A stretch of DNA of 64,000 nucleotides from Streptomyces sp. NBC_01197. GTDB taxonomy: Bacteria > Actinomycetota > Actinomycetes > Streptomycetales > Streptomycetaceae. The stretch is taken from the NCBI RefSeq assembly GCF_036010505.1, contig NZ_CP108569.1, positions 6,898,001-6,962,000 on the forward strand, in the 5' to 3' direction. Shown piece by piece: positions 13,083 through 30,794 of this stretch. The notes under the pieces are model-generated. The model searched no databases. It was not told where the DNA came from and saw nothing but the letters and a program-made list of their open reading frames with translations. The position numbers and the translations under genes are program-made. Positions within the stretch are counted from its first letter, which is position 1. Every line of letters begins with the position of its first letter.

Positions 13083-13142
13083 TTCCCTGGACGGTCTCTT
13101 AATCGAGTGCGAGAGTCCCTGTCCGGGTGATACAAGGTCTGC

Positions 13143-13907: not shown

Positions 13908-16343
13908 TTAAAGGGAGCGGTTCTCCCTGAGTGTGTCCTCCAGTTTCGCCTCGGACTCTTTCAGCGCTTCTCGCAATCGGTCACGCTCGGCTTCGGTCTC
14001 CCGCAGCCGGGTCGTGTCCGCCCTGAGCCTGTCGCGTTCCGCGCGCAAGATCCTGAGCTCGGCTATGGCCAGTTCCAGGTCGGCCGTGAGCGATTCGATT
14101 GAAGCACCTGAGCCGACCCCTACTTCGCGAACGCCCCTGCCCTGCTTGTCGATTGCCTCCTCGATGCGCTCGCGCAGTCCCTCGGCATATACCAGCCAGT
14201 TCGAGACCCGCGCAGTTCGAGCGAGTCCGAGGAAGGTGATCTTCTCCCCGGCAGCGGCCATCTCGTCGAGGACCTTGAGTACTCGGCCTCGCTTGATCTC
14301 GCTGTCGCGTGCTCTGGCCTCGCGCAGCACCTGGGCCGGGGTCCGTTTGGCCGTGGCCCCGTCCAACGGTCTGACACAGACCTCATCCGAAGGGGTGACA
14401 TCAGTGTTCCTGGGCACGGGCTCCTCGGCTCTTGCACGACGATCTGACCGATGCCGCGGCCAGGGCTCCGGCATCGGGTTCCGGGGTTCGAAGGCAATCG
14501 TGAGGTGCTCAAGGCTGATGCCGAGCGCGCTGGCGGCGGCGGATGGCGAGAGGCGGCTCCTGATCAGCCTGGATGCGCGTTCACTATCGGGCAGGAGCAT
14601 GCCTCGGCCGGATAGGTCGAGGTGATCGACCAGCGCCAAGGGCGGCGACCAAGTGACAGGCTCATGGATGCCGTGCGAGGCCAGGTAGTGCGCGGCGTGC
14701 TCGTCGAGAGCTGCTAGGAGCGACGAAGTCAAGATGATCGGCAGGTTCCGGGTCTTGTCGGTGAAGTCCAAGTTCAGCGAAGCGGAGGGTGAGTAGAGGT
14801 CAGAGCCGGTCATGCGCTGGTAGAGGTATCTGCGCACCGCTGTAAGTCGGTACGGGGCGTCAGGCGGGCTGCCGGTCCGGTGGCGGATATCGATCCAGGT
14901 GGCCTCGGGCAGCAGGTCGCTGCCCTTCAGCTTCCGCCGACGGGCGTAGTCGATGGGTGCTGGGTGTTGGTCGAGGTACTCGGCGAGAAGGCAGATCGCG
15001 GCGGGTAGGTCGGTGTCGGCCGGGGCGATTTTGGGGAGGAGTTGCGCCATGGGTAGCGGCCGGTTGCCGTGCAGGAGCGAGGTCGCGAGGTCGTAGCGCT
15101 GCTGCCACCAGCCGGGGAGCACGACGGCGGCGGCCAGAGCGGCGCGCCAGAAGTGGTAGTTGTAGCGGTCGGCGAGGTTGCTCTGCGGGGGGAACAGCAG
15201 CAGAGCCCAGTCCAGCCAGAGCAACTGTGGCAGCGAGTGCGTCCGCATGATGACCGCGTGGTCGCGGCGTTTCGGGACTCGGGGCCGGGCGGTGCAGGTG
15301 CGGTAGCGAAGCCGGGGCCCTGTGGCCAGGTGGGGGTCGGCGGCTCGCCAGAACTGCTGTTCCAGATCGACTGAGGCCAGCCGTGTGATGCCGCGGCGTA
15401 TCTGCTCCGTTGGCCCCTTTGGCATGACCGCGACCTCACGGTCGACCAGGGTGCGTATGGCAGTGAAGGCGGCCTCGGCGAGAGGGTCGCGAACGATCTC
15501 GACGGCGACGGTGAAGGGGCCGGCGATCACGGCCGCGTCGACCGGCGCGTAGAGGGCGCTGTTCCCGTGGCGTTGGCGTGCCTGCTCGATCTGCGGGCCG
15601 CAGTCGGTGAAGTCACCCGGCTCAGCTCGCAGGAGACTGCGGGCGGCGATCGCGGTGACATCGGTGAAGGCGTCATGCAGGTAGGGATCGTCGTCGCCGG
15701 CCTCGATCCGGCTCAGCAAGCCGTTGATCCATTCCTGCGCATCGAGGACTGGGCTGTCCGGGGGCAGCGGAATGACCTCGCTTTGCGTCAGGTCGGTTCG
15801 GCAGGCTCTGCCGTCGCCGGCCCGTGCCGAGCACTCGTGCTGGCCGACCTTGTGGCTGATGGAGGGGCGGCGGTGCGGCCATCGGCCGCAGGCCGGGCAG
15901 GTGTGCGCGAGCAGCACCTGGTGCTGGGTGCAGGCGATCGACCAGGTGAGGCGCCAACGGAGGGGCCAGCGGCCGGCGCCTTCGGCCAGGCATTGCGGGC
16001 AGTATCGGGAGCCGACGCCGCGGCCCCAGAACCTGACACGACGTACCACCCGGCGGCTGTCGTGCAGTGCGAGTGCGTGGCCGTCGTAGCGGCGCAGTGT
16101 CATGGCGTGCAGGAGCCGCGTGTTGGTGCCGGTGACGTGGGCGAGCCGGTCGGCTTCCTCGGGGGTGAGGTAGGTGGTGTAGTCCGGTGTGTGGTCGGTC
16201 CGGGTGGGGAACGGCGATCCAGCGGCGATGAGCAGGTCGCGCAGGTCGATACTGCTGCGGTGCATGATGGCGCCCAGCCACGAGTCCAGAGCCTCACCCG
16301 GGAGCGCGGGCAGCCGGATGGGCAGCGTCCGGGGCATCATCAC
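13908..16343 (-). CDS. tniQ: TniQ-family target selector with a C-terminal TnpC-like domain
   Basis: 811 residues. The N-terminal TniQ domain (about 7-160) starts LPIRLPALPGEALDSWL and contains the zinc-finger cysteines C115/C118 and C149/C152 with H141. A long middle region is typical of TnsD-like proteins. From about residue 668 the sequence becomes a different module: TPAQVLREARARDSEIKRG, then RTARVSNWLVYAEGLRERIE, then a coiled coil of Arg/Glu/Leu heptads. This module closely matches the TnpC protein at 30225-30794. TniQ/TnsD proteins choose the insertion site and recruit TnsC. The start lies inside the end of tnsC (50-bp overlap). ATG 16343 is one of three adjacent ATGs. Confidence 0.9.
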   Translation of the reverse strand: MMMPRTLPIRLPALPGEALDSWLGAIMHRSSIDLRDLLIAAGSPFPTRTDHTPDYTTYLTPEEADRLAHVTGTNTRLLHAMTLRRYDGHALALHDSRRVVRRVRFWGRGVGSRYCPQCLAEGAGRWPLRWRLTWSIACTQHQVLLAHTCPACGRWPHRRPSISHKVGQHECSARAGDGRACRTDLTQSEVIPLPPDSPVLDAQEWINGLLSRIEAGDDDPYLHDAFTDVTAIAARSLLRAEPGDFTDCGPQIEQARQRHGNSALYAPVDAAVIAGPFTVAVEIVRDPLAEAAFTAIRTLVDREVAVMPKGPTEQIRRGITRLASVDLEQQFWRAADPHLATGPRLRYRTCTARPRVPKRRDHAVIMRTHSLPQLLWLDWALLLFPPQSNLADRYNYHFWRAALAAAVVLPGWWQQRYDLATSLLHGNRPLPMAQLLPKIAPADTDLPAAICLLAEYLDQHPAPIDYARRRKLKGSDLLPEATWIDIRHRTGSPPDAPYRLTAVRRYLYQRMTGSDLYSPSASLNLDFTDKTRNLPIILTSSLLAALDEHAAHYLASHGIHEPVTWSPPLALVDHLDLSGRGMLLPDSERASRLIRSRLSPSAAASALGISLEHLTIAFEPRNPMPEPWPRHRSDRRARAEEPVPRNTDVTPSDEVCVRPLDGATAKRTPAQVLREARARDSEIKRGRVLKVLDEMAAAGEKITFLGLARTARVSNWLVYAEGLRERIEEAIDKQGRGVREVGVGSGASIESLTADLELAIAELRILRAERDRLRADTTRLRETEAERDRLREALKESEAKLEDTLRENRSL

Positions 16344-17466
16344 CGCCGCCTTCTGCTCTTGTCCGGTTGCTGGTCACCTTCCCGGAGGCGAGGAACGCCT
16401 CCCACTTGGCCAGCTGCTGCTGGGCTGCCCAGTCGAGCTTGACCTGGGCGAGCACGTCCTTGGTCAGGCGCTCCTGCCCGGTGCGCATCGCACGAAGGCT
16501 GCCGAGCCTGATCAGCGACATGAGCGAGCCGATATGCCCGCTGCAGCGGGCATAGAGCTGGTCGGACAAGTCATCGGCGAGCATCCCGGGGTACTTGTTG
16601 GCCAGGACCAGACGCTGCTCAAGGGAGAGCAGGAAGCGCCGCCACTGCTCTCGCCCGGCCTCGTCTTCGATGCTGAACGCCTGGAGTCCGAGCGGCGTGA
16701 TCCGCCGGGCGAGCTGCGGATCGTCGTAGAGACCTTTGCCCTCAAGGTCGTGGCCGATGAACAGGATCATCAGCGGGAACTCATTGGCGATCGTCTTGAA
16801 CTGGTTGGCCAGCTCGGTCCCGCGGCGGGAACGGAACTGCAGGAACTGCAGGTCGTCCACCAGCAAGAGCCGTGATTGACAGGACACCGCGCAGTCCAGG
16901 GCGCGCGATAGGAACGCGTTGGCGCTGCCGCTGTTGCGCCCGGCGTGGGCGAAGAACTCCAGCATCGCCCAGTTGAAGTCCTTGACGCTGGTGTCGCCCA
17001 TCATGCCGACCCGGATTACGGGCCAGCGCTCGTGACCGGCCTCGGTGAACCGCCCATGCCTACTGATCAGGGTGTTGTGCACCTTCTTGGCGAACGAGAG
17101 GCCGATGGTGGTCTTGCCCAAGCCGGGGAACGCGTCGATCGCGGCCATGCCCTTGGCCTGCCAGTTGGGCTGGTCGACCCCCGCGTCGAAGATGTCGGTG
17201 AGGTCCGCGGAGAGCTCCTGGACCTGCATGGTCTTGATCGGCCGCAGGTTGGCGAGGAACCTGCGACGGTCATCGTTGTAGTGTTCGAGCGCCGCAGGAT
17301 CGAGCGCTCTGAGGTCCGCCATGGTCAGCGTGAGCGGAATAGGCGTCTCTCTCGCCTCGGCGAACGCCGCGAAGCCTTCCTTCCTGGTGAGCGTCAGGTT
17401 GTCCAAGGGCAACGCGCGCCACGCCGGATCCTCCGATGCCGCCGGGCCGGCTTCCGCCATGGTCAC
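16294..17466 (-). CDS. tnsC: TnsC/TniB-family AAA+ ATPase
   Basis: 390 residues with Walker A AFPGLGKTT (residues 112-120) and Walker B RLLLVDDLQFL (199-209), in the arrangement of TniB/TnsC regulators. These ATPases assemble on target DNA, link the TniQ selector to the transposase and control activation. GTG 17466 overlaps the tnsB stop (GTGA), showing coupling; an ATG two codons later is an alternative. The C-terminal tail is Gly/Asp/Ala-rich and overlaps tniQ. Confidence 0.92.
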   Translation of the reverse strand: MTMAEAGPAASEDPAWRALPLDNLTLTRKEGFAAFAEARETPIPLTLTMADLRALDPAALEHYNDDRRRFLANLRPIKTMQVQELSADLTDIFDAGVDQPNWQAKGMAAIDAFPGLGKTTIGLSFAKKVHNTLISRHGRFTEAGHERWPVIRVGMMGDTSVKDFNWAMLEFFAHAGRNSGSANAFLSRALDCAVSCQSRLLLVDDLQFLQFRSRRGTELANQFKTIANEFPLMILFIGHDLEGKGLYDDPQLARRITPLGLQAFSIEDEAGREQWRRFLLSLEQRLVLANKYPGMLADDLSDQLYARCSGHIGSLMSLIRLGSLRAMRTGQERLTKDVLAQVKLDWAAQQQLAKWEAFLASGKVTSNRTRAEGGGDDAPDAAHPAARAPG

Positions 17467-19547
17467 AGGTCTTCCAGGGCGTCGGCGTAGAAGGCGTCCT
17501 CGTCGAGGTCGGTGCCGCCGTCGAAGTCCTCGAAGTCGGCCGCGTCGTCATCGCCGGCCTCCTGCGCGGGCGGCGGTGAGTCCTCGGCCACGGGCTTGTC
17601 GTCCTCGATGTCGATCGCGAACGCCGCCTGATCGCGGGCCATGCGCAACGCCATCCGCCGCTCGGCCAGCGTCTGGCCGAAGCCCAGATTCCACCGCTCG
17701 AACAAGTCGGCCGTCACCAGGCGGTCGTTGGGGTGCCGGTACTGCTTCGCGGCCAGCCCGCGTCCGTATCGCAGTGCATCCCTGCTCATCGGCATGTTCA
17801 GGACCGGGGCATGCTCCCAGTGCAGGACGCGCCAGCGCCGGCCCTGGTCCCGGAAGTAGGCGCGGGTGATGTCGTCCGGGTTGACCTGGAACGGCCACAG
17901 CCCGTTGGGGTAGGGGCTCGGCCGCCCGTCCTTGGGCAGCCCCGCGCCGTCGTAGCGGCACCCCCCGATCTCCACCCCATAGGGCTGAATCGTTCGCCAA
18001 GAGGTCTCCAGGAACTCCAGGCCCAGATGAGGATCCCGCGGCACCTCGATGTAACCGGCCCTGGCCATACCGTGGGCAAACATCTGCGCCGGGGACATCC
18101 GCAGCCCGGGAACCCCCGGCTCCACCAGACTGCGGTGCGGGTTGCAGTGGTAGACCGCCGCAATCCACTGCCGGATCTTGTCGGCGAGCTCGTCGAGGAA
18201 GAAGAACGCCTCTCTCTCCGGATCTACTCCGCGGGAGAAGATGTCAGGGCCCTTGTAGCCGGGCAAGCCGTAGAGCAGGTCCTGACGCAGGGTCCGAAAA
18301 AATCTCTCGACCGGCCCCTTGTCCCGGCCCGTGCGAAGCCGGACCGGCTGTATGGAGATCCCCATCCGCGCGCAGACACTGGTCAGGTGATCCGAGACGT
18401 AGATCTTCCCGTGGTCGACGACGATGGTCTCCGGTGCCAACGCGGGCCCGGCAGCTCGCGAGATCGGACCCTCGATCGCCTGAGGGTCGACCAGCACCGA
18501 CCGCGGGATCCCGTGCTCGGGCCAGACCGCCCCGGACGGCCAGCTCGGCAGCATCGGCAGCGGCCGGTATGCCTGGTAGAGGACTGCGGCCGCGTCCACC
18601 GCCTTGGTGGAGACCGGCGTCAGACGCATCCCGACGATGCAGCGTGTGTACCAACACATAGCGACTGTCAGCTCGCAGTTCACCCATCGCAGCGTCAGCG
18701 GATCCAGCGCGAACACGTCGAGCCGGGTGGTGTCCATCAGCACGTACTCACCCGGCCGGGTCGCACGCAGCCTCCCGTAAGCCTCCTTCGGCCGCCTGGC
18801 GATATCCCTGTTCCGCTTCGTGCTCAACCGGAACGTTGGATGCTGCCGCTCCAACAGCGCCAGCGCCTCGTAGCCCTTGCTCCTGGCCGGTATCGCCACC
18901 GCGCCCTCGCCGAAGCGGGCAATCACACGCGCCCGGGTTCGGTCGAGCACTTCCTTCTGCATCGGCGTGGCCTGGTCCACGAACTCGACCATCGCCTCCA
19001 ATGCGGTCTCCACCCACCGCGGATCACACCGATCAAGGACCGTCGTCCCGCGTAGTTCAGGCGCCAGGCCCGCTTCGCCGTTCGCTGCGGCGTCTGCCAC
19101 CCAACGCTTGACCGTCCGCACCGATACCCCAAGCTCATCGGCCTTCGCCCGGTAGCGGACCATCTTCGGCAGGCCCGGCTCGAACCCCGGCCGCGGCTCA
19201 CCCTGCAGAGCCAGCTCCGCGCTGCCGGATTTGTAGCCGGTGCGGATCTCGCGGACGTGCTCGGCCCGCTCCAGGACCCGCTGCCGCACCTCAGGCACCA
19301 GCTGGGACAGCACAACCGAGGCAATCTCCCGATCGTCAGCAGACGACGGCCCGGGGCCGTCCGCCACGACCTGCGCTCGGTCGGAGAACAGCAACTCCTT
19401 CACCGACACCCGACAGATCCGGCCGAGCCGGTCTTTCAGTACCACCTCGTTACCGGTCATCGTCGCGGCCATCTCGACGATCTCAACGGCCTCACCGTCG
19501 TAGAGCAACCGGGCGCCGACCCCCAGTCGCACCGATCCGGTACTCAC
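17463..19547 (-). CDS. tnsB: TnsB-like DDE transposase (Mu/rve family)
   Basis: 694 residues from GTG 19547, which overlaps the tnsA stop as GTGA. Order: N-terminal beta-barrel-like segment, helix-turn-helix (DELGVSVRTVKRWVADAA), then the integrase core with D272 (YVLMDTTRLD), D378 (IVVDHGKIY) and E414 (GRDKGPVERFFRTL). The last two are separated by 35 residues, the canonical DD(35)E spacing. A Mu-type C-terminal domain and an acidic tail (DDDAADFEDFDGGTDLDED) follow; acidic tails often contact the ATPase. It cuts and joins the 3' ends. The catalytic set is intact. Confidence 0.93.
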   Translation of the reverse strand: MSTGSVRLGVGARLLYDGEAVEIVEMAATMTGNEVVLKDRLGRICRVSVKELLFSDRAQVVADGPGPSSADDREIASVVLSQLVPEVRQRVLERAEHVREIRTGYKSGSAELALQGEPRPGFEPGLPKMVRYRAKADELGVSVRTVKRWVADAAANGEAGLAPELRGTTVLDRCDPRWVETALEAMVEFVDQATPMQKEVLDRTRARVIARFGEGAVAIPARSKGYEALALLERQHPTFRLSTKRNRDIARRPKEAYGRLRATRPGEYVLMDTTRLDVFALDPLTLRWVNCELTVAMCWYTRCIVGMRLTPVSTKAVDAAAVLYQAYRPLPMLPSWPSGAVWPEHGIPRSVLVDPQAIEGPISRAAGPALAPETIVVDHGKIYVSDHLTSVCARMGISIQPVRLRTGRDKGPVERFFRTLRQDLLYGLPGYKGPDIFSRGVDPEREAFFFLDELADKIRQWIAAVYHCNPHRSLVEPGVPGLRMSPAQMFAHGMARAGYIEVPRDPHLGLEFLETSWRTIQPYGVEIGGCRYDGAGLPKDGRPSPYPNGLWPFQVNPDDITRAYFRDQGRRWRVLHWEHAPVLNMPMSRDALRYGRGLAAKQYRHPNDRLVTADLFERWNLGFGQTLAERRMALRMARDQAAFAIDIEDDKPVAEDSPPPAQEAGDDDAADFEDFDGGTDLDEDAFYADALEDL

Positions 19548-20275
19548 CGCGCGCTCCGCAAGACGTGGTCGCCACTGAGCGGGCTGTCGAGTTCCGTCAG
19601 GAAGCGACCGGTCCACAGCAGGTGAAAGACCGAGGCGCGGACCAGCAGCGCATCACAATCAGGCGCCGCGGTGAATGCCTCGGCCAGCGTCGCGCCGTCC
19701 AATCCGGCCTGGTCCAGTGCCTCAAGGAGAACCGGATTGAACAGCCAGCCTCGCCGGTAGCCCGCCAGGAAACGGAGGTTCTCCAGCTCAACGGCCGGCG
19801 GCTCGCTCCATACCTGGTAGCCCCAGCCGCGCGACTCAATGACTTCCCGGCTCCAGCGAAACGAGAACGCCACATCGGGATGAGACAGCCTGCGCGCCGG
19901 TTTCACGTCGACGACCACCGGCCCAGAGCCGGTCAACAGCAGGAAGTCCGGGATGTGCCTGCGGACAGCTCCATCGACGCGAGCGGTCATCAGGAACGGC
20001 TGGGCGATGATGCGTAAGACATCGTCATCGAAGTCGGCGTACAGCAGCCTCGCCAACTCCAGCTGAGACTCGTAGATCACGTGGCCATGCTCGGTTGCCG
20101 ACCAATATGTCCCCGAGTAGTGCTGCTGCCCCAGATGCCATCGAAACGTCCGCCATGGACCGGCATCGAGCAGCTGCCCCAAGGGAGCCTCACGGAAGCT
20201 GGACTCCTCAACTTCGCCCTTGCCCACCGGCTTCGTCTGCACGGTAGCGCTGTCGATGACGCCCTTGACGGACAC
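19544..20275 (-). CDS. tnsA: TnsA-like endonuclease
   Basis: 243 residues from GTG 20275, ten bases after AGGAGG. The nuclease core shows the Glu in VIYESQLELARLL, the Asp in RHIPDFLLL and the Lys in VVVDVKPA. This is the E-D-(X)xK layout of the TnsA/VSR restriction-like fold, although Asp occupies the place of the Gln found in Tn7 TnsA. TnsA cuts the 5' strands so that the element leaves by cut-and-paste, with TnsB cutting the 3' strands. First gene of the four-gene operon, closest to the right end, as in Tn7. Confidence 0.85.
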   Translation of the reverse strand: MSVKGVIDSATVQTKPVGKGEVEESSFREAPLGQLLDAGPWRTFRWHLGQQHYSGTYWSATEHGHVIYESQLELARLLYADFDDDVLRIIAQPFLMTARVDGAVRRHIPDFLLLTGSGPVVVDVKPARRLSHPDVAFSFRWSREVIESRGWGYQVWSEPPAVELENLRFLAGYRRGWLFNPVLLEALDQAGLDGATLAEAFTAAPDCDALLVRASVFHLLWTGRFLTELDSPLSGDHVLRSAR

Positions 20276-20455
20276 GAGATCTGCACCTCCTGATGCGGCT
20301 CTCCAACCCACATCACCAAGGTGAAGCTGCAACCACCGAGTTGGGGCTACAGGCCGGAGGTGCCACCCAAACGAGTGACGCCAGCGACCTGCAGATCCGC
20401 GATAGGTGTCCCTTAGGACAAGCTGGGGACAGACTCGCGTGGAAAGGGATATCGA

Positions 20456-20470
20456 AACGCGGACCCTACA
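20456..20470 (-). repeat. Right terminal inverted repeat of the Tn7-like element
   Basis: AACGCGGACCCTACA, the exact complement of the left repeat, ending in ACA and followed at once by GCGCG (20471-20475). Confidence 0.92.
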
Positions 20471-20502
20471 GCGCGGGACGCATCGACTTCGCCCTCACCT
20501 AC
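20471..20502 (+). pseudogene. LysR regulator, middle piece (second of three)
   Basis: After the duplicated GCGCG, codons from 20476 read GRIDFALTY. This continues the frame that ended in LRA at 12981 and gives the usual LRAGRIDFALTY strand of LysR effector domains. The similarity ends at about 20502-20508, where the ~14-kb island begins. The next LysR residues (DNLGLSADLEV) are found at 34584. Confidence 0.85.
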
Positions 20503-20687
20503 GGCGGCGGTTATCTAAGGGCTGTCAACTGATTTCCCAGGTCAGCACCACTTCGTAGTGGCGAGGCAAGTTAGGCAAGTAGGCGACGAATGTCTCCCAC
20601 CGCTGCCATTTTTTGCGGACAACTGTTGCCGTAGGGTCAGTCACCGTTGGAACGGCCAAGAGGGCTGGACGCGCCGAGGAGAGGCAT

Positions 20688-22151
20688 ATGCCACCGGTAC
20701 CTGCTGGTTCGTCTGCTGCTAATGAGCCATGGCTCCAGGTCGTGCCGTTGGCCTCGGAAGAGGCGGAGCGGATGGAGGCGGTGCGCCGCTACGACATTCT
20801 CGACACGCCGCCCGACGGTGCGTTCGACCGGGTTGCGGCGATGGCGGCCCGGTTGTTCGAGGTGCCGGTGGCGAGCGTGACGATCGTCGATGAGGACCGG
20901 ATCTGGTTCAAGGCCGCGCACGGGCTGGAGGGGGTCAGCGAGATCGGCCGGGATCCGGGGCTGTGTTCTTCGGCGATTCTCAGCGACAAAGCTCTGGTGA
21001 TCGAGGACACGCTGGCCGACTCGGTGGCCTGCGCCAATCCGCTGGTCGCCGGCCCGATGGGGGTGCGGTTCTACGCGGCTGCTCCGATCATCACCCCCGA
21101 CGGGCACCGGCTGGGCACGGTCAACATTCTCGACACCAAGCCGCGATCGATCACCGAGTCCGACACCGCCACGCTGAGTGACTTGGCTTCCATGGTCCTC
21201 GACGCGATGGAGCTGCGTCTGTCGGCGCTGCGGCTGCTGCGTGAGGAGCAGGAGCGGCGCAAGGAGCAGGAGGCGGCGCGGGAGCAGGCCGAGCGGGACG
21301 CGGCGGCCATTACCGCTTTTGCCTCGACGCTGCAGCGCACGCTGCTTCCGCCAGCGCTGCCGGCGGTGCCCGGGCTGGAGCTGGCCTGCCACTACCAGAC
21401 CGACTCCCCCCGTGATGTCGGGGGCGATTTCTATGACGTCTTCGCTCTTGGCGGCGAGCGGTGGGCGTTCTTCCTGGGTGATGTGTGCGGCAAGGGTGCT
21501 GAGGCCGCCGCGGTGACCTCACTGACCCGTTACACGCTGCGGGCGGCAGCCGGTCACCATGACGAGCCGGCCGATGTGCTGGCCGAGCTCAACGGCGCAC
21601 TGTTGGGGGATACGTCCCTGGGCAGCCGGTTCTGCACCTGTGTCTTCGGCACGCTGACCCCGGTGCCCGGCGGCGGCTTCTCCGTGACCGTGGCCACTGG
21701 CGGCCATCCGCCGCTCTTCCACCTCCATCAGGGCGGCGCTAATGGGGCGATGCGGGTGGATGCCGTGCACCCGGCGGGCGGGATGCTGGTCGGGGCCTTC
21801 CATGAAGCTCAGTTCGCCTCCTGCACCCTGCATCTGGCGCCCGGGCACAGCCTGCTGCTGTATACCGATGGGCTCACTGAGGCCCGGCTGGCTGACCAGA
21901 GCATGCTCGGCGAGGACGGTTTGGCCGACTTCCTGGCCCGGCGCACGTCACCGGCAACCGCCGGGGCCCTCGTGGAGGACGCCGTCGCTCTCATACAAGA
22001 TCTGCCGCAGGGGGCCGGTGACGATGTCGCCCTGCTGGCCCTGTCCGTCCCGCTGTATCCGGCTGTTTCCGGTGGCCCCGGTGCCAGTGGGGGCTCCCGT
22101 GCGATCGCCGCTCCTGTACCCCGCCGGACGTCGCCGGCCAGGGAGCGCTGA
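20688..22151 (+). CDS. GAF-SpoIIE (PP2C-type) serine/threonine phosphatase
   Basis: 487 residues. A GAF domain (about 35-190, with ILDTPPDGAFDRV, VDEDRIWFKAAHGL and NILDTKPRSI) senses an unknown signal. A short coiled-coil linker rich in Glu/Arg (about 200-230) follows. The SpoIIE/PP2C phosphatase domain has RDVGGDFYDVF, LGDVCGKGAEAA, ATGGHPPLFHL, LLLYTDGLTEAR and GAGDDVALL, which supply the acidic metal ligands. Such proteins dephosphorylate anti-sigma-factor antagonists and so release alternative sigma factors. The ATG at 20688 follows AGGAGAGG. Because a SigB-type sigma factor lies 4.6 kb downstream in the same island, they may act together. Confidence 0.88.
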   Translation: MPPVPAGSSAANEPWLQVVPLASEEAERMEAVRRYDILDTPPDGAFDRVAAMAARLFEVPVASVTIVDEDRIWFKAAHGLEGVSEIGRDPGLCSSAILSDKALVIEDTLADSVACANPLVAGPMGVRFYAAAPIITPDGHRLGTVNILDTKPRSITESDTATLSDLASMVLDAMELRLSALRLLREEQERRKEQEAAREQAERDAAAITAFASTLQRTLLPPALPAVPGLELACHYQTDSPRDVGGDFYDVFALGGERWAFFLGDVCGKGAEAAAVTSLTRYTLRAAAGHHDEPADVLAELNGALLGDTSLGSRFCTCVFGTLTPVPGGGFSVTVATGGHPPLFHLHQGGANGAMRVDAVHPAGGMLVGAFHEAQFASCTLHLAPGHSLLLYTDGLTEARLADQSMLGEDGLADFLARRTSPATAGALVEDAVALIQDLPQGAGDDVALLALSVPLYPAVSGGPGASGGSRAIAAPVPRRTSPARER

Positions 22152-22410
22152 CGGGGCCCGAAACCTCGCTGGGAGGCAACTCCGTCTCGCTGCGGCGTCG
22201 GGCCACGCGGGATATAGGGCTGGCAAGCGGCCGGAGCGAAGGACGCTGGAGGCGCAAGGTTCCCTGCGAAGACGCCTTCCGCCCCGGCCACGCTGATACG
22301 TCTGCCCAGCAATTCCAGCCCTATATATCTGTTTACCCGCTATCGGATCCGCAGGCCCTTTCCGTCGCCCATGGCAGGTCTACGCATGTGCTGGTCTACC
22401 AGGCATCTCT

Positions 22411-22950: not shown

Positions 22951-23133
22951 CTACTTCGGCTTGACGGCGTCCTTGATCTTCTCCTTGGCCTGCCGCGCGT
23001 CACCCTTGGACTCCTCGGCACGGCCCTCGGCCTCGAGGGACTCGTTGCCCACCGCGCCTCCGGCGACCTTCTTGACCTTGCCCTTGGCCTGCTCTTCCTT
23101 GGCCTGAGCCTTCTCGTCCGCAGCCACAGCCAC
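22951..23133 (-). CDS. CsbD family stress protein
   Basis: 60 residues, very rich in Lys, Glu, Ala and Gly with repeated KAK/EEQAKGKVKKVAGG patterns, the standard CsbD-like sequence. These small hydrophilic proteins belong to the SigB-type general stress regulons of Gram-positive bacteria; their molecular role is unclear. The gene lies in the same island as a SigB-type sigma factor and a SpoIIE phosphatase. It is divergent from the small hydrophobic protein at 23317. Confidence 0.9.
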   Translation of the reverse strand: MAVAADEKAQAKEEQAKGKVKKVAGGAVGNESLEAEGRAEESKGDARQAKEKIKDAVKPK

Positions 23134-23316
23134 TCACACCCTGCCGTACTCGAAATAAATTAGGTCATTGCCTGTCTTACCGGAGTACCGAAGTTCAAAC
23201 CCCAGACGATTGCCGGACGGAAACTAGCGTGACGCAGCGTGCCATAAGGATTACGTAAGATTGGCAGGAGTGGAGCGACCGAGCCGGGGCATGAGATGCC
23301 TCGGAGGTTGATAACA

Positions 23317-23487
23317 ATGGTTCCCATTCTGCTCGTTCTTCTTCTTGCGCTGATCCTCTTCGGTGCGGGTTTCGCACTCCAGGCCCTGTGGTGGATCGCC
23401 GCTATCGTGCTGGTGGTGTGGATCCTCGGCTTCGTGATTCGCCCGGCAGCCAGTGGCGGCAAGCGCGGCCGGTGGTACCGCTGGTAG
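23317..23487 (+). CDS. Small hydrophobic membrane protein
   Basis: 56 residues: two closely spaced hydrophobic helices (MVPILLVLLLALILFGAGF and LWWIAAIVLVVWILGFVI) and a basic tail ending GKRGRWYRW. The ATG at 23317 has GGAGG nine bases before it; an upstream in-frame ATG at 23296 is less well placed. Short proteins of this design are frequent in Streptomyces and annotated only as hydrophobic proteins. Its divergent CsbD neighbour suggests co-regulation under stress. Confidence 0.75.
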   Translation: MVPILLVLLLALILFGAGFALQALWWIAAIVLVVWILGFVIRPAASGGKRGRWYRW

Positions 23488-23509
23488 ACGGTCCCGGGAG
23501 CTGATGTGA

Positions 23510-23551
23510 TGTGGGTGGGTCCCGACAGATTCCTGTCGGGACCCACCCACA
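23510..23551. terminator. 19-bp hairpin with T-rich flank
   Basis: Arms 23510-23528 and 23533-23551 are fully complementary around an ATTC loop, followed by CTTCTTTT. It lies between convergent genes (23317-23487 and 23646-24869), so it can act in both directions. Confidence 0.8.
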
Positions 23552-23645
23552 CTTCTTTTCCGGATGCGCCATCAGCTCCGGTCAGCGCCGGGGCATGGCT
23601 CCGGTCGTGGCATGGAGTGAAAAAGCGATCGGCCGGCCCGCTGGT

Positions 23646-24869
23646 TCACAGGAACCGGCGGATGGGGGTAACGGCTGCTTCCCGCATACGCTGGCCGGCC
23701 GAGCGGCGCTTCCAGCGGCCCGGTGCGATCAGTTCACTCACCTGCAGGTCCTGCTCGAAATGGCCGTCCAGCACCGCGGTGAAGTCCTCGTCCAGGACGG
23801 CGAGCATGACTTCCTCGTCGTGGTCCAGGGAGCGGCGGTTGAAGTTGGTCGAGCCGACCAGGGCCGCGACGTTGTCGACGGTGATCGCCTTGGTGTGCAG
23901 CATCGTCGGCTGGTACTGCCAGATCTTCACCCCGCAGGCCAGAAGGTCCTCATAGAAGTGCTGTCCGGCCAGCTGGCACACCCGCTTGTCGGTGTGCGGG
24001 CCCGGCAGCAGGATCTCTACCTCGACGCCGCGCCGAGCGGTGGCACACAGCAGTTCGATGAAGTAGGCGTCCGGTGAGAAGTAGGCGGTGGTCAGGCGGA
24101 AGCGTTCCTCCGCGGACTCCAGCATCACCCGGATCAGGGTCTGCATGTCCTGCCATCCGAAGCTGGCCGAACCGCGTACCACCTGAACGATCGCCTCGCC
24201 CTGCGGCGCGTGTTCGATGAACCGGTCCCGGTCATCGAAGAGCTCGGCATGGCACTCGGCCCAGTTCTGCGCGAACGCCGCGGCGATGCCGTCCACGGCC
24301 GGGCCGCGGACCTCGACGTGGGTATCACGCCATTCGTTCTCATCGCGGGCGTTGCCGCACCACTCCTCGGCAATGCCGACACCGCCGGTGAACCCGGTGT
24401 GCTCATCAATGACGAGGACCTTGCGGTGGCAGCGGTGGTTCTGCTTGAACGGCGAGAGATGCAACGGCTTGCGGAACCATGCCACCTGCACTCCGGCCTC
24501 CTCCATGGCCTCCAGTTGGTCCGTCTCGATGAGTCGGCTGCCGAAGCCGTCCAGCAGCAGCCGCACCCGCACGCCCGCGCGGGCACGTTCCGCGAGCGCC
24601 TGGGCGAACTGGCGGGCGATGTCACCCTTCCAGTACACGAACGTCATCATGTCCACGGTGTGCTCGGCCCCGCGGATGCCCGCCAGCATGGCGGCGAAGA
24701 TCTCGTCCCCGTTGCGCAACGGGATGAGCGCGTTGCCCTCGGTGGCCGCGATGCCGATCAGCCGCTCCAGACGCCGCCGTATCCGTACGACGCGCTCGTC
24801 GAAAGACGGTATGGCCCGCGCTGTGGAGGTCTCGGCGGTGAGCTCGGGTGGTTCCTGTGTACTGGGCAT
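23646..24869 (-). CDS. Phospholipase D family protein, cardiolipin-synthase-like
   Basis: 407 residues with two HKD catalytic motifs. The first is HRCHRKVLVIDEHTGFTGG near residue 140-160. The second is MLHTKAITVDNVAALVGS near 320-340, followed by TNFNRRSLDHDEE. An N-terminal PLD fold (NGDEIFAAMLAGIRGAEHTVDMMTFVYW) precedes them. The layout fits bacterial cardiolipin synthases, which transfer phosphatidyl groups, but no N-terminal membrane helices are seen, so other PLD activities are possible. A change in membrane lipids would fit the stress theme of the island. Confidence 0.85.
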   Translation of the reverse strand: MPSTQEPPELTAETSTARAIPSFDERVVRIRRRLERLIGIAATEGNALIPLRNGDEIFAAMLAGIRGAEHTVDMMTFVYWKGDIARQFAQALAERARAGVRVRLLLDGFGSRLIETDQLEAMEEAGVQVAWFRKPLHLSPFKQNHRCHRKVLVIDEHTGFTGGVGIAEEWCGNARDENEWRDTHVEVRGPAVDGIAAAFAQNWAECHAELFDDRDRFIEHAPQGEAIVQVVRGSASFGWQDMQTLIRVMLESAEERFRLTTAYFSPDAYFIELLCATARRGVEVEILLPGPHTDKRVCQLAGQHFYEDLLACGVKIWQYQPTMLHTKAITVDNVAALVGSTNFNRRSLDHDEEVMLAVLDEDFTAVLDGHFEQDLQVSELIAPGRWKRRSAGQRMREAAVTPIRRFL

Positions 24870-25324
24870 GGGTCACCTGGCCGGGACAAAGAGGGGAAAA
24901 CGGTGCCCGTGCCGACCCGGTCCGGCACGGGCTGGCACAGCGAAGCGACTGTACCCGCGCCCGCACCTCGGCAGGACAGCCCCGGCGGCCTGCCGACCGG
25001 CATGCACCGGCGCGCCCCGGTCATACCTGGCCAGCTCATCAGCCCGGCCGCAACAGTCCCAGCGCTTGCGGGTAGCACCGGTTCCACCAGCCGATGGGGC
25101 CAGCGTCGTTCCAAGAGAGCACCACCCCGGTCCGAGACTGGATACCCGCGGCAGGCGGCCAGCGCTCCGCCAACGGGTCAAAGAGTCTACTGGCCAGCCG
25201 ATCCGGTGATCGCGACCCATTGGGCTCCCCGGTCTCGTTTTTCCTACCGCCGGCAGACATGCACGTCGCCTGCCGGGGAATACGCCGTTGCGGAACGCAG
25301 TGCATACCAGGGAGGGATGGGGAC
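24870..25324. other. Divergent promoter region without supported gene
   Basis: 455 bp between the divergent PLD and sigma factor genes. It must hold both promoters, but no confident -10/-35 pair could be picked. The in-frame extension upstream of the sigma factor start has no family similarity. Confidence 0.5.
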
Positions 25325-26206
25325 ATGGCAGCGACTTCTGCGCCTACCGCCGACATTATGCGAACGGAGGGCGCGGCGCTGTCCGTAGCGACCGGTGCGG
25401 CCACGAGCGGTGAGTTGCCGTGGATCGAGGACGGGGCCAAGCTCGCCCCCAAGAACGCCCGGGCCCTGTCGAAGCTGTTCTTCGACCAGCTCCAGGTCCT
25501 GGAAGAGGGCACGCCCGAATATCAGTACGCGCGCAACACCCTGATCGAGATGAACCTCTCGCTGGTGCGGTTCGCGGCAGGCCGGTTCCGCAACCGCGGC
25601 AGCGGCGACATGGAGGACATCGTCCAGGTCGGCACCATTGGTCTGATCAAGGCCATCGACCGGTTCGATCTCTCCCGCGAGGTCGAGTTCACCACCTTCG
25701 CCATCCCCTACATCATCGGCGAGATCAAACGTTTCTTCCGCGACACCACCTGGTCCGTCCACGTACCGAGGCGCCTGCAGGAACTGCGGGTGGAAATCGC
25801 CAAGGCGAAGGACCAGCTCGCCTCCTCCCTGGGCCGTGAAGCGACGGTCAAGGAACTCGCCGAGCGTCTGGATCTCAGCGCGGACGAGATCGTTGAAGGC
25901 ATCATCGCCTCCAACGGCTACACGGCAGGCGCTCTGGAGATGCCCACCGACGGTGAGGGCCCCTCCAGCAACTATGCCGACGTGCTCGGTGAGCCGGACC
26001 CTGCCATGGAAACGATGGAAAACCTGTACACCCTGGCACCGCTGCTGACACAGCTCGACGACCGCCAGCGCCGCATCCTTGAGATGCGCTTCGGCCAGGA
26101 GATGACACAGTCCCAGATCGGCACCGCCCTGGGCATCTCGCAGATGCACGTCTCCCGGCTCCTGTCCCGCACCCTCACCCAGCTCCGCACCGGCGTGCTC
26201 ACCTGA
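25325..26206 (+). CDS. SigB/SigF/SigG-type sigma factor
   Basis: 293 residues of the sigma-70 group 3 stress/sporulation type. Region 2 is clear (RNTLIEMNLSLVRFAAGRF, GDMEDIVQVGTIGLIKAIDRFDLSREVEFTTFAIPYIIGEIKRFFRD). Region 3 begins TWSVHVPRRLQELRVEI, and region 4 contains LDDRQRRILEMRFGQEMTQSQIGTALGISQMHVSRLLSRTL. The ATG at 25325 follows GGAGGGATGG. No anti-sigma gene is adjacent. In Streptomyces several SigB paralogues direct osmotic and oxidative stress responses. It may be released through the SpoIIE phosphatase 3.2 kb upstream, but that link is inferred. Confidence 0.92.
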   Translation: MAATSAPTADIMRTEGAALSVATGAATSGELPWIEDGAKLAPKNARALSKLFFDQLQVLEEGTPEYQYARNTLIEMNLSLVRFAAGRFRNRGSGDMEDIVQVGTIGLIKAIDRFDLSREVEFTTFAIPYIIGEIKRFFRDTTWSVHVPRRLQELRVEIAKAKDQLASSLGREATVKELAERLDLSADEIVEGIIASNGYTAGALEMPTDGEGPSSNYADVLGEPDPAMETMENLYTLAPLLTQLDDRQRRILEMRFGQEMTQSQIGTALGISQMHVSRLLSRTLTQLRTGVLT

Positions 26207-26374
26207 ACCAGGCCCGTCATGCCGACCCAGCACGCCACACCCTCCGGGGGGCAAGCGCGCTGTGCGCCCGCCGGGCCAACGCTGCCCGGCACCCTCAGAA
26301 CCAGAGCGGCCCCCGGCGGGGCCCCTACAAGCAGACGGGCCGGGAATCTCGGCCCGGCAAGCGGAGGAGTCCCT

Positions 26375-26626
26375 GTGCTGTTGCCCCACCCTGCGATACT
26401 GCGCAACCTGGTCGAACAGTACGAAACCCTCGTCGCCCAGGGAGGCGGCCAGGACGCTGAGACCCGGCGGCAACTGGAAGACATCACCTACACGCTCTGC
26501 GTCTCCACCGGCACACTCACCGCCGAAGCGGCGCTGACCGCCGCGCAACAGCAACTGACCGCCGCCCTCGCCGACCCGACGACCCCACACAACGGGGCAG
26601 CAGGCGACGTGCAGCTCACGGCCTGA
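26375..26626 (+). CDS. DUF5133-like small protein
   Basis: 83 residues starting VLLPHPAILRNLVEQYETLVAQ, then RRQLEDITYTLCVSTGT, which I recall as the conserved pattern of Streptomyces DUF5133 proteins. GTG 26375 has GGAGGAG at 26362-26368. The C-terminal half is Ala/Thr-rich. Function unknown; members often sit near stress sigma factor genes. It starts 168 bp after the sigma factor and may share its transcript. Confidence 0.75.
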   Translation: MLLPHPAILRNLVEQYETLVAQGGGQDAETRRQLEDITYTLCVSTGTLTAEAALTAAQQQLTAALADPTTPHNGAAGDVQLTA

Positions 26627-26936
26627 CACACAAAGCATCACCACAACGACGCGGGACACGGCTCCCGCGGCAAACCGGGGTCTTCTCCCGGGGCAGATCG
26701 ACTGATCGGCGATGTCCTTCAGTAGGTGCGCTCAGACAGCCCCCGAGACCGTTGGAGGCAGCCCCAGCCGCCCGCGGTCTCCCGATAGGTGCACCCTTCG
26801 TAGGAACAGTGCCCGTTGCCGTTGGCGCAGAGCGGGGAACCGGACGAAAATGGGGAGTAGAACCTCGCAGGCTTCGCCAGGAGCGGTGGGCCGAGGAGTT
26901 CAGCCAGTGGCGCGGGGTGGCTTGGAGGCACGTTCT
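26627..26936. other. Gap without supported gene
   Basis: 310 bp between two small genes. Only a weak GC-rich hairpin around 26653-26695 was seen. The end carries the ribosome binding site GGAGG (26924-26928) of the next gene. Confidence 0.45.
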
Positions 26937-27065
26937 ATGTTGCGGGCAATTGCAGATGTTCTGCGAACGATCGGCGGAGCGATCGCCACCGTGGTCACCC
27001 TGCCCTTCCGCTTGGTCGCGAGGCTCTTCGGCGGCGCTTCGGACAGCGCGCACGGCCGCCACTAA
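26937..27065 (+). CDS. LPFR-motif small protein
   Basis: 42 residues, MLRAIADVLRTIGGAIATVV followed by TLPFRLVARLFGG and a polar tail. It is an amphipathic helix with the LPFR motif that names a family of tiny Streptomyces proteins of unknown role. GGAGG lies eight bases before the ATG. A terminator hairpin follows at 27072-27100, so it is probably a separate short transcript or the end of one. Confidence 0.75.
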   Translation: MLRAIADVLRTIGGAIATVVTLPFRLVARLFGGASDSAHGRH

Positions 27066-27071
27066 CGCCCT

Positions 27072-27100
27072 TGCCTGCCCGGCCCGAAGCTGGGCAGGCA
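27072..27100 (+). terminator. Hairpin after the LPFR gene
   Basis: TGCCTGCCC (27072-27080) pairs with GGGCAGGCA (27092-27100) across an 11-base loop, followed by TCTT. Confidence 0.7.
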
Positions 27101-27169
27101 TCTTCACGCGATCAGTACCGTTGAGGTGGCGGCCAACTGGCAGACGCAGAGGACAGGTGCAGAGGAGGG

Positions 27170-27427
27170 ATGGCGGTGGCCATCACGACGGATCCGGCTG
27201 GGTGGGGGGACCTGTTCACCCGGGATGTCGACGGACAGATGGTGCAGTTCGTCAGACCCGCTGACATTGAGGGCCCGGCCTGGGGCGCGTACGACGGGGG
27301 CGGGTTCCTCGGCATGCTCTACGCCGAGCCCGATCATGAGGGGCCGCTGTGGCGAGCGGGTTTGATCGCCGGGCGACACCATGAGCTTGAGGATGCGGTA
27401 CGGGCTCTGCGCAATAGGTCCGGGTGA
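27170..27427 (+). CDS. Small hypothetical protein
   Basis: 85 residues with a good ribosome binding site (GAGGAGGG just before the ATG). Hydrophilic, with a YDGGGFLGMLYAEPDHEGP stretch and a C-terminal helix ELEDAVRALRNRSG. No family recognised and no signal peptide or membrane helix. It lies between the LPFR gene and the unknown operon at 27774, all within the island. Confidence 0.6.
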   Translation: MAVAITTDPAGWGDLFTRDVDGQMVQFVRPADIEGPAWGAYDGGGFLGMLYAEPDHEGPLWRAGLIAGRHHELEDAVRALRNRSG

Positions 27428-27773
27428 ACCAGAGCGGCCGGGCACCCGTGTCGGGCCGCTCCGACGTGGAGCCGACCATGGCGCCGACTGCCAACTCCTC
27501 CAGAGTGAGACCGGCGGACCCTGCGACTGCCTCTGTCGGCCGAGGAGCTGCGTTCCTGCGGCTTCGTCGCCACCGCCGAACTCTGAGCCCCCGCAAGGGA
27601 TGAGACATTCACCGGCACCGGTGCGTCTCTACCTCGACGTGACGGCCTAACCGCGCTGATCAGTGCTGGTGAGCGTCAACGTGGCACATCTCAAAGCATC
27701 TTGGAAGATCAAACGGTACGCATTCACACGATTACTCTGTGCGCTCATCCCATCGGCGCAATGAGGAATCCGT
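27428..27773. other. Gap with possible gene remnant
   Basis: 346 bp without an intact gene. A short reading ending AEELRSCGFVATAEL before a stop near 27587 looks like a C-terminus but has no visible beginning. The last 100 bp are comparatively AT-rich and probably hold the promoter of the operon at 27774. Confidence 0.4.
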
Positions 27774-28617
27774 ATGAGCTACACAGACCAGGACGTGCGT
27801 GAGGGCCGCCGGCTGATGAACGAGGGCTGCGAGAACCGCCTCGTCATCGGCGACAAGCTGCTGGCCGGCACGGCCGCGGGCGGCCCGGACAGCGCCTTCG
27901 ACCAGTACTGCGACGAGATCGGCCTGAGCCCCAAGACGGCCCGGCAGTACCGGCATACCGCCCGCCGTGTGCACCCCGCCGGTGCGGCAGCTCGTGGCCG
28001 ACAGTGGCGTCCACGTCAGCTACAGCACGCTTCGTGAAGGCGCCCGCCTTGCCCCCTCCGGCAAGCCGTACGACGAGGGCTACAGCACCCTGCGCTCGCT
28101 GCTGCAAGAAGCGAGCGAGGGCGGCATCGGCCGCATCAGTGCTCCGCGGTACCGCCGTGCCCTGGGCATCGGCCCGGCCTTGCAGGACTTGTTGGACCCC
28201 TCCAGCAACACATCCCTGGCGGACTATCTCGCCTCCCTGGCGCCCCAGGAGCGTGATCAGGCTCTTCGGGACCTGGTGGAGCAGAAGGCGGAGGTGCACG
28301 ACGCCCTCAAGCGGGTCATGGACGAAAAGCGCCGCCGGGACCGTGAGACCCGCGGCCCCGAGTGCGGTGGCGGGAAGCCCGACAAGGCCGCGGCCGTGGC
28401 CCGGGATCTGGTGCGGCTCAGCGACCAGGGGGCCGCTTTCATGAGCCGTTACCCACCGTCCGCCTCGCTGGCCTTCACCAACGAGCAGAGGGTCGCCTGC
28501 AAGGAAGTGCTGGGGACCCTGGACGTCCTCGCCACGTGGATCAGGGTCAGGGTCATCGACGACCAGCCGGCTGCCGCTGACGACCGGGCCGGGGCCCGCG
28601 ATCTGGTGGGTGTGTGA
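27774..28617 (+). pseudogene. Frameshifted helix-turn-helix-like gene, first of an unknown operon
   Basis: Starts MSYTDQDVREGRRLMNEGCE behind GAGGA. The frame runs to about 27960 (DEIGLSPKTARQYRHTAR) and continues in the next frame as CTPPVRQLVADSGVHVSYSTLREGARLAP to the stop at 28617. Together this makes about 280 residues. The GLSPKTARQYRHTARV segment resembles a DNA-binding helix-turn-helix. The middle is charged (KRVMDEKRRRDRETRG). No family is assigned. Two intact genes follow with overlapping stops and starts. A sequencing error cannot be excluded as the cause of the shift. Confidence 0.6.
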
Positions 28618-29597
28618 TGGAGCCGGCCGCAGCAGACGATGGCGAGGATCGCCTCAACGCTGATATCGAGGACTTCGCCACCCACGACCGAAAAGGCGGC
28701 TGGGCCCGAGCACTCCTGATCGCACGGCGCGTCGAACCGCGTGCAGGACAGGGCGAACGGACGGACCTGCAACCTTGTTTCGGCCGAAACAAAGTCTTCC
28801 GCCGCATCAGCGCACAGGAGTTCGCCCGCAGGTCGGGCAGCTCCGCCAAGCGGATCATGGCCTTTCACGAGGCATGGAAACGGGCGGCGGCCCTCGGGCG
28901 CGTTCCCTCGGTCCACGAGCTGGAGCCCGGCCGCCATGTCGAGTTGCCGGACGAGGAGGAGGTTCCGTTCTTCGGCGAGCACGGCTACTACCGCAGCTAC
29001 GAGGCTCGCATGAACAACGGCGAGCGACGGCAGGCGATCGAGGATGAAGCCGAGCGGGCCGGGATCAAGCCGGGCTCCCCGGTCTACGTGGCTCAACAGC
29101 CGAAGGCGCTGAAGACGGCGATCCTGGCCGACGCGGATACCCGTGCCGCCGCCCAGGAAGCGTTGGCGGAGTTCGAACGGCGCGAGGCACGAGCCGACCT
29201 CGAAGACCGTGCCGCAGCCCGCCAGGCGGCCGAGGAAGGCGACCGCGCGCGTGACGTTCAGGACGTGCCCCCAGCCCGGCAGGTGCCCGGCGAGGAGGCC
29301 GCGGCAGTCGAGCGGGCGGTGTGCACCGCGTCGCGGGACCAGCCCGAACCCGACGTGGCTCTGCTGGTCTTCACTGAGATGACCGAGGTCCGTCTGGCCA
29401 CGCTGCGGGCGCTGTCGCTGTTGCAGCGTCACCAGGTGCAGTTCACCGGCGACCGCAGCCGGGCCATCACCGACCTGTGCACCGCGTCGGAGGCGGCCCT
29501 CGCCTTCATCCGCGACCTGGTCGCCGGCCCCTACACGGCGCTGAACGACGACGCCCTGCAAGCGTTCCTGGACGAGAGTCAGAGGAAGTTGGGATGA
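28617..29597 (+). CDS. Unknown protein, second gene of island operon
   Basis: 326 residues from ATG 28617, overlapping the previous stop by one base. N-terminal part contains a helix-turn-helix-like stretch (ISAQEFARRSGSSAKRIMAFHEAWKRA). The centre (about 130-230) is highly charged and likely coiled coil (AAAQEALAEFERREARADLE). The C-terminal part is helical (LVFTEMTEVRLATLRALSLLQRH). No catalytic motif or known family is visible. The overlap with both neighbours indicates one functional unit, perhaps a regulatory or DNA-binding complex of the mobile island. Confidence 0.7.
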   Translation: MEPAAADDGEDRLNADIEDFATHDRKGGWARALLIARRVEPRAGQGERTDLQPCFGRNKVFRRISAQEFARRSGSSAKRIMAFHEAWKRAAALGRVPSVHELEPGRHVELPDEEEVPFFGEHGYYRSYEARMNNGERRQAIEDEAERAGIKPGSPVYVAQQPKALKTAILADADTRAAAQEALAEFERREARADLEDRAAARQAAEEGDRARDVQDVPPARQVPGEEAAAVERAVCTASRDQPEPDVALLVFTEMTEVRLATLRALSLLQRHQVQFTGDRSRAITDLCTASEAALAFIRDLVAGPYTALNDDALQAFLDESQRKLG

Positions 29598-30238
29598 GCC
29601 GCAAGCGCCACAGTGAGACCACCTCCCAGCTGGAGCAGGACGCGATCGACGTCCTGCTGTGGCTCGGGCCCAACGCGGGCCGCGAACTGTCCTACGTGGA
29701 CATCTCCCGCGGTACCGGCATTCCCGACGGCAGCCGTCTGCGGCGTGCGGTGCCCAAAGCCCGTGCCGCCGCCCACGTGCTCGGGCACCGGGTGGAGCAG
29801 TTCAAGCCCTCCCGCGACCCGCTCAAGCGCGGTGCGAAGGTGACGCGCTTCCACAAGTGTGGCCAGGGCGGCGAGTTCGGCGCCCGTGACGCGTTGCGGG
29901 CCTGCCGCAAGGCGGTGGCCTACATGGGCGACATGCACCGGGCCTGCTCGTTCGAGGCAGGCAACCCCAACAGCCTCGACCGAGAGGCGTTCGGGCAGAT
30001 GGCGGAGGCCGCCGAAGGCAGCATCCGGACCTTCAGCGGCGTGGAGAGGCTGGGCAGCAAGGTCGTGAAGAACCAGGGCACCATGCGGCGCCAGGCCGAG
30101 CGGATCGCGGACCTGGAGGCCCAGATCGCCGAAATGACCTCGGCCAGTCCGCCGCCTCGGCCTGACCCCGTGTACGACACGGCCCGGCAGCGACAGCCGC
30201 CGGGCCGCCTCGTATCGCACCGGGTCAGGTGCGGTTGA
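29594..30238 (+). CDS. Unknown protein, third gene of island operon
   Basis: 214 residues. ATG 29594 overlaps the previous stop (ATGA) and follows GAGGAAG. The N-terminal 60 residues look like a winged-helix region (LEQDAIDVLLWLGPNAGRELSYVDISRGTGIPDGSRLRRAVPKAR). The C-terminal part ends in a coiled coil (RRQAERIADLEAQIAEM). No family recognised. Its last 14 bp overlap the end of the minus-strand tnpC gene, so the operon and the recombinase module are directly convergent and probably moved together. Confidence 0.7.
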   Translation: MSRKRHSETTSQLEQDAIDVLLWLGPNAGRELSYVDISRGTGIPDGSRLRRAVPKARAAAHVLGHRVEQFKPSRDPLKRGAKVTRFHKCGQGGEFGARDALRACRKAVAYMGDMHRACSFEAGNPNSLDREAFGQMAEAAEGSIRTFSGVERLGSKVVKNQGTMRRQAERIADLEAQIAEMTSASPPPRPDPVYDTARQRQPPGRLVSHRVRCG

Positions 30239-30794
30239 TCTGCTTGAGCATCCGCTTGCCCGCTTCGCGTGCGGCACTCAGGTCATCCTCGGTCTCCGTG
30301 AGCCTGCGCTTGAAGTCATCCCGTTCGGCGCGTATCTCGTCGCGTTCCAGGGTGATCCGCTCCACAGCCGCCAGAAGCTCGTTGACCCGCTGGTTGAGTT
30401 CCTTGGTTCCGGCCTGGTCGAGTTGGGCGCCCAGCGAGCGCTGGACGGCCTTCTTGAGGCGGTCGCACTCGTCGCGCAGGGCCTTGTTCTCCTCGCGGAC
30501 CAGGGCCAGATCGGTGGCCAGACTCACCGCGGAGGCATCCCGGCCGGCCTGGCGGGTGCGGCGGTCGGCCTTGGCCTGGCTCTTCATGGCGGCCTCGATG
30601 TGCTCACGGACGCCTTCGGCGTAGACGAGCCAGCTGGACACGCCCGCCGTGCGGGCGACCGCAAGGAAAGAGACCGCCTCGCCCCTGGTCTTCATCGCGT
30701 CCACGGTGGCCAGCACCTTGGCCCGCTTGGTCTTGCTGTCCTTCTTGCGGGTCTCGCGCAGGACGTCACCGGGGGTGCGTCTGGCCTCGCTCAT
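30225..30794 (-). CDS. tnpC: TnpC-like protein of a Tn554-type module (DUF6262-like)
   Basis: 189 residues. The N-terminal 70 form the conserved module TPGDVLRETRKKDSKTKRA, then RTAGVSSWLVYAEGVREHIE. A long coiled coil follows (ALVREENKALRDECDRLKK and ERITLERDEIRAERDDFKRR). In Tn554, TnpC assists the two integrases and influences insertion. ATG 30794 overlaps the tnpB stop (ATGA). Unlike tnpA and tnpB, this gene is intact. The same module forms the C-terminus of TniQ at 13908-16343. I recall this family as DUF6262 in actinobacterial annotations. Confidence 0.82.
   Translation of the reverse strand: MSEARRTPGDVLRETRKKDSKTKRAKVLATVDAMKTRGEAVSFLAVARTAGVSSWLVYAEGVREHIEAAMKSQAKADRRTRQAGRDASAVSLATDLALVREENKALRDECDRLKKAVQRSLGAQLDQAGTKELNQRVNELLAAVERITLERDEIRAERDDFKRRLTETEDDLSAAREAGKRMLKQINRT

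Follow-up and report, generated by a model that had tools for sequence, protein, structure and literature searches.

In Tn7, the selector TnsD directs insertion to attTn7, at the 3′ end of glmS, with the R end of the transposon facing the recognised site at a fixed distance. The present text deals with a 64,000-nucleotide stretch of Streptomyces sp. NBC_01197 (contig 1, positions 6898001-6962000, in a genome of 7.7 Mb; hereafter the window), in which a single lysR gene hosts both a Tn7-like transposon (12982-20470, minus strand) and a Tn554-like element (20504-34589, minus strand, left boundary approximate). The C-terminal part of the Tn7-like target selector TniQ is homologous to TnpC of Tn554-like elements, and this TnpC-derived module probably redirects the Tn7-like transposon to the ends of such elements; lysR, according to the best reading, would merely be the site where the Tn554-like element already sat. 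For comparison, passages of Faure et al. 2023 (PMC10293859) report that the Tn7-like element Tn6022 and the tyrosine-recombinase transposon Tsy share the target selector TnsF and both reside in comM, and also mention one fusion of a TnsF N-terminal region to TniQ. As for Tn554, TnpC stimulates its transposition and influences orientation, according to parts of PMC3414803 and PMC5385486.

Like TnsF, the selector in the window belongs to a Tn7-like transposon and has a homologue among the proteins of a tyrosine-recombinase transposon. TnsF, however, appears in the passages of PMC10293859 as a separate, inactivated protein of recombinase type, whereas the module found here is of the TnpC/DUF6262 type, is no recombinase, and is fused to TniQ. 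Furthermore, Tn6022 and Tsy occupy the host gene comM, while the apparent target here is the end of another transposon, and in contrast to the one TnsF-TniQ case mentioned there, the present fusion runs through a whole clade, many relatives of which have a different C-terminal array and a dnaB site. CRISPR-associated Tn7-like transposons, as covered in the same passages, also aim at other mobile elements by means of a co-opted recogniser; they are RNA-guided, in contrast to a protein domain from the very kind of element that would be targeted here. Similarly to TnpC of Tn554 and GinD of GInt, the module is related to a small helper acting beside tyrosine recombinases, but these two are free proteins of the recombinase element (PMC3414803 and PMC5385486, in part) and not a domain of TniQ. 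The first-pass annotation, which stated that no such case had been described, thus went too far, since the principle is already known from TnsF. The particular module and target appear to be without precedent in the openly licensed literature searched, where no description of a TnpC-TniQ module, of a Tn554-like end as target, or of the dnaB site of the relatives was found; because openly licensed papers alone were covered, this absence is weak evidence. The likeness to Tn7 TnsD lies in a selector of the TniQ family whose C-terminal part is variable, and in an R end at a fixed distance; the sister elements at the dnaB site resemble Tn7 as well. Unlike for TnsD, the apparent site is the end of a mobile element, and a TnpC-type domain forms the C-terminal part.

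The similarity between the C-terminus of TniQ and TnpC, pointed out in the first-pass annotation, is real. BLASTP aligns TniQ residues 665-774 to TnpC residues 4-114 with 56 of 111 positions identical (50%, E-value 2e-27), and both proteins match Pfam family DUF6262. The TnpC match exceeds the cut-off (E-value 2e-10), and TniQ residues 677-777 score 25.1 bits with hmmscan (E-value 2.1e-5, cut-off 29) and 29.7 bits in the genome search. Two TniQ relatives, P0003 and P0007, exceed the DUF6262 gathering cut-off (30.7 and 35.5 bits, respectively). The host genome contains DUF6262 in two places only (E ≤ 0.001), namely this TniQ and this TnpC, and Pfam reports nothing but TniQ and DUF6262 in the window TniQ protein at E ≤ 0.1. 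A generic coiled coil, the explanation that could have undone the proposal, is ruled out as the source of the similarity, because the alignment also covers the helical N-terminal part ahead of the coiled coil, in which the residues S..LVY..G.R are conserved in both proteins, and because the domain groups among TnpC domains in trees. The module is helical, possibly with a TetR-like helix-turn-helix (HTH), and is followed by the coiled coil. A sequence search of the PDB returned five coiled-coil-type chains for TnpC (E-values 0.14-0.9) and one other TniQ for TniQ, and the Foldseek structure search gave no match at E ≤ 0.001.

The Tn7-like transposon extends from its L end at 12982 to its R end at 20470, with inverted TGT..ACA ends (TGTAGGGTCCGCG) and a 5-bp target duplication, GCGCG, at 12977-12981 and 20471-20475. 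Its four transposition genes are adjacent, lie on the minus strand and all have open frames: tnsA endonuclease, proximal to the R end (19544-20332, NCBIfam TnsA_like_Actin, E-value 3.4e-71), tnsB/tniA transposase (17463-19616, NCBIfam IS481 transposase, E-value 1.7e-18, which is under the cut-off of that model), the AAA ATPase gene tniB/tnsC (16294-17466, Pfam TniB, E-value 8e-12), and tniQ (13908-16343, 811 aa, Pfam TniQ, E-value 7.5e-20). The latter encodes a TniQ core followed by the TnpC-type module (residues 665-811, 13911-14351), which comprises DUF6262 and the coiled coil.

According to the position of the R end, both readable fused copies (2/2) sit at the same distance from the distal end of a Tn554-like element. 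In the window, 41 bp of mostly lysR DNA (20471-20511) separate the R end from TATCTAAGGG, where the Tn554-like distal end with its TATCTA begins. In genome G149 (locus L052), the R end is followed by exactly 41 bp and then by TATCTAGGG. The two spacers are identical at 11 of 41 positions, compared with a mean of 12.6 for shuffled sequences (standard deviation 2.8); being unrelated, they indicate separate insertions. A distal-end profile of 83 columns, built from seven other Tn554-like elements with the window and G149 ends excluded, was searched with nhmmer and yields one significant match in the window, at 20511-20584 on the plus strand (E-value 5.6e-10), which is the putative recognition region and lies beside the R end. 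The same profile gives one significant match in two overlapping G149 loci (L052 2755-2687, E-value 1.7e-9), also beside the R end. To find the seven ends, their likeness to the window end was used together with a short motif derived from the window and G149; the TATCTA part of the profile is for this reason not independent of these two, unlike the other columns of the 83. In leave-one-out analysis, 7 of 7 ends were recovered, each as the top match, and 20 block-shuffled windows gave no match at E ≤ 0.001. The fixed spacing of 41 bp points to a DNA site at the Tn554-like end.

The relatives that lack the module insert elsewhere. Among 81 sister loci (77 from the second contig scan described below and 4 others), TnsA is matched in 69, an R end can be recognised in 61, and the flank reaches 150 bp or more in 56 (53 distinct); the R ends were chosen by a simple pattern, TGT[AC]GG at 80-450 bp from TnsA, and 13 of the 69 loci with TnsA were dropped for want of a recognisable end or with a flank below 150 bp. 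In 26/56 flanks (24/53 distinct), the R end is located at the dnaB 3′ terminus, 3-13 bp past the stop codon in 20 of the 26 (19/24 distinct) and at 48-241 bp in the rest. The gene is identified as the replicative helicase by a DnaB_C match in L119, the one scanned with Pfam (E-value 4.3e-108). The distal-end motif is absent within 150 bp in all 56 sister R flanks (53 distinct), which also lack a significant profile match, and none of the 81 loci contains tnp genes at E ≤ 1e-6. In the 1.56 Mb of sister loci, the profile finds two weaker matches, both off R ends, in L175 (E-value 4.2e-6) and L127 (E-value 9.4e-5); these lie about 1-2 kb past the TniQ match of non-fused Tn7-like loci (L175:12797-12849 and L127:14203-14260). 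As for the C-terminal part of TniQ, it is longer in P0011, P0015, and P0019 and ends in a LysR-type HTH, which is also present in 17 of 18 scanned dnaB-site TniQ proteins (L095 and L117 of the 18 are identical; 8 of the 26 were left out of the scan, 6 with short or broken frames and 2 on the minus strand). The core tree of TniQ has the dnaB site both in the clade next to the one uniting the fused copies with Catenulispora and in an outer clade, and this site is therefore probably ancestral. A large actinobacterial Tn7-like group resides at the dnaB 3′ end (L095, L117, L119, and 23 other sister loci), and other sister elements seem to reside at other genes, e.g., L171, L146, and L187.

The fusion itself is rare. 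Among the matches listed (120) from 193 TniQ homologues, the module is covered by P0002-P0007 alone, P0003 being Streptomyces sp. NBC_00893, whose TniQ is 90% identical to that of the window; a search with residues 655-790 alone returns the same six. In 392 Streptomyces genomes, that of the window included, the one other full copy is that of G149 (85%). These genomes also contain three remnants (G097, G310, and G193), two of which, G310 and G193, were assigned to the fused lineage by identity alone; none of the three has an R end, and they are therefore uninformative on the target. Draws overlapping the first, with 394 and 384 genomes from the family and 383 from the genus, yielded no further fused copies. 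A first scan of genome contigs with TniQ found nothing, and a second returned 77 loci, in all of which the match stopped at or before TniQ residue 701. Searches of viral contigs, with the TniQ alignment and with the pattern of an R end and a distal end, found nothing, and no plasmid record matched more than 80% of TniQ. The module is accordingly confined to one rare TniQ clade among the matches listed in the homologue searches. Weaker TnpC-like matches occur in long open frames (493-1147 aa) of G209:C114, G104, G366, G257, G199, and G098.

Trees of the domain support its origin from TnpC. In the first tree (127 domains, 123 columns), a single clade unites all 8 TniQ modules (Shimodaira-Hasegawa-like approximate likelihood ratio test, SH-aLRT, 100); it has TnpC on all sides and is nested in a supported clade (97) of 65 rows that includes the window TnpC. 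The second tree (75 rows) contains more distant TnpC proteins, with 27 TnpC from fetched genome loci, and again unites the 8 modules (100) with TnpC groups on all sides. In both, the sole outgroup is other, distant TnpC. These groupings lend good support to a single transfer between the two protein families, and its direction was likely from TnpC to TniQ, because TnpC is diverse and the fusion is rare.

These observations suggest the following course of events. In this TniQ, a TnpC-type DUF6262 domain from Tn554-like elements would replace the C-terminal HTH array of many relatives and bind the distal end of Tn554-like elements, presumably at the site used by TnpC itself. The bound TniQ would recruit TniB and the TnsA/TnsB transposase, which would then insert the transposon 41 bp outside the distal end with its R end facing that end. 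The idea that the module serves in targeting, put forward in the first-pass annotation, gains from its location at the usual target-recognition position of TniQ and from its association with a different insertion site. We also lean towards a natural target switch, in which a lineage with dnaB-homing relatives exchanged its HTH array for TnpC and is now a hitchhiker on Tn554-like ends. The first-pass annotation looked to the uninterrupted lysR as a sequence that the domain might bind. If lysR were the recognised target, the two elements would have settled on one lysR sequence separately, each by means of the common domain, which would fit their insertion no more than about 30 bp apart in one gene, as judged by comparison with intact lysR (G023, L101). 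However, G149 has the identical 41-bp arrangement with an unrelated spacer, so that the feature common to both copies is the Tn554-like distal end and lysR as the recognised target was rejected. Moreover, among Tn554-like relatives with 80-86% identical TnpC, lysR matches in 0 of 5 stretches (for L035, on a flank of just 91 bp), and some of these relatives share their site with elements whose TnpC is only 54-60% identical. Recognition of lysR is thus highly improbable, and the earlier interpretation as a whole is partly supported.

Redirection to Tn554-like ends has also to be compared with the reverse order, in which it is the Tn554-like element that inserts, at a set distance from a Tn7-like R end. 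The spacing of 41 bp alone does not give the order; on the other hand, both readable fused copies have a Tn554-like end, whereas none of 28 other Tn554-like stretches (19 elements; 19 tnpA-side and 9 distal-side stretches, the latter including the 7 located ends) contains Tn7-type genes, which favours the Tn7-like element in the role of chooser and makes the reverse order quite unlikely. Alternatively, the module may bind TnpA/TnpB, the transposon's own ends or something else, with proximity arising from protein contact or joint spread. Coiled coils often bind proteins, and the Tn554-like end in G149 has no recombinase genes nearby; in contrast, a fixed spacing is indicative of a DNA site, and unrelated spacers of separate insertions. 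We regard such another partner as unlikely. Binding of DNA by the module, with a site in the distal end, is itself inferred, and several points weigh against redirection to Tn554-like ends. The order of arrival, with the Tn7-like element second, is one that we infer, and there are two insertions only. The G149 copy has inverted ends but no target duplication, the Tn554-like end beside it is an orphan, and the genome has no other TnpC match. In the second tree, the TniQ modules fall outside a supported clade (97) with the window TnpC, as do the most similar TnpC proteins (62-63% identical), and the trees do not single out a TnpC donor lineage. Finally, the nearest relative with a readable flank, from Catenulispora (L115/L116), is not at dnaB, and the switch may not have been straight from dnaB.

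As for the Tn554-like element, the window contains two tyrosine recombinase regions, tnpC, and conserved ends, with tnpABC at the right end and the core GATAAC at 34584-34589. On the minus strand, tnpC (30225-30794, 189 aa) is adjoined by a tnpB-type region of three overlapping open frames (30791-33476) and a tnpA-type region of two (33323-34497, Pfam Phage_integrase, E-value 4.5e-25); in L033 the pieces matching each of the two regions share one frame, and the splits in the window reflect either decay or sequencing error. The interrupted lysR, on the plus strand, consists of a 5′ part (12548-12981) and a 3′ part (34590-35053) and, besides the two interruptions, has a frameshift near 12840 (12548-12860). 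The cargo of the Tn554-like element (20613-30238) includes a GAF/SpoIIE-type phosphatase, a phospholipase-D-like protein, and a sigma-70-family factor, and three further scanned genes have no Pfam match; the one cargo gene of the Tn7-like transposon encodes a mycothiol-dependent maleylpyruvate isomerase-like protein (13143-13907, plus strand, Pfam MDMPI_N/C). Among Streptomyces Tn554-like elements L033-L051, GATAAC stands at the common tnpA-side end in 12 of 17 flanks printed, with near variants in L039, L047, and L051, while L035 is cut off and the end of L042 was not located. Several host sites are reused (by L033/L034/L038, L036/L041, and L043/L044/L045). That TnpC relatedness predicts the target of these elements was rejected, since the five with 80-86% TnpC identity are not all at the same site and L038 (60%) shares its site with L033/L034. 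By eye, AGGCAWGT-like repeats occur near both Tn554-like ends at varying distance from TTATCT, and are possible arm sites for the recombinases or TnpC.

If true, redirection to Tn554-like ends would give TnpC a function, the recognition of its own element's distal end, and a portable aiming module would work in both tyrosine-recombinase and DDE transposition systems. Two questions become testable, namely the role of TnpC and whether TniQ sets the insertion site through its C-terminal part alone, for which nature apparently provides a swap experiment with the same transposase set, another C-terminal module, and another target. Should this be confirmed, recognition modules for Tn7-like insertion systems could be drawn from TnpC variants, and transposons aimed at the ends of other transposons would be a recognised route to composite elements.
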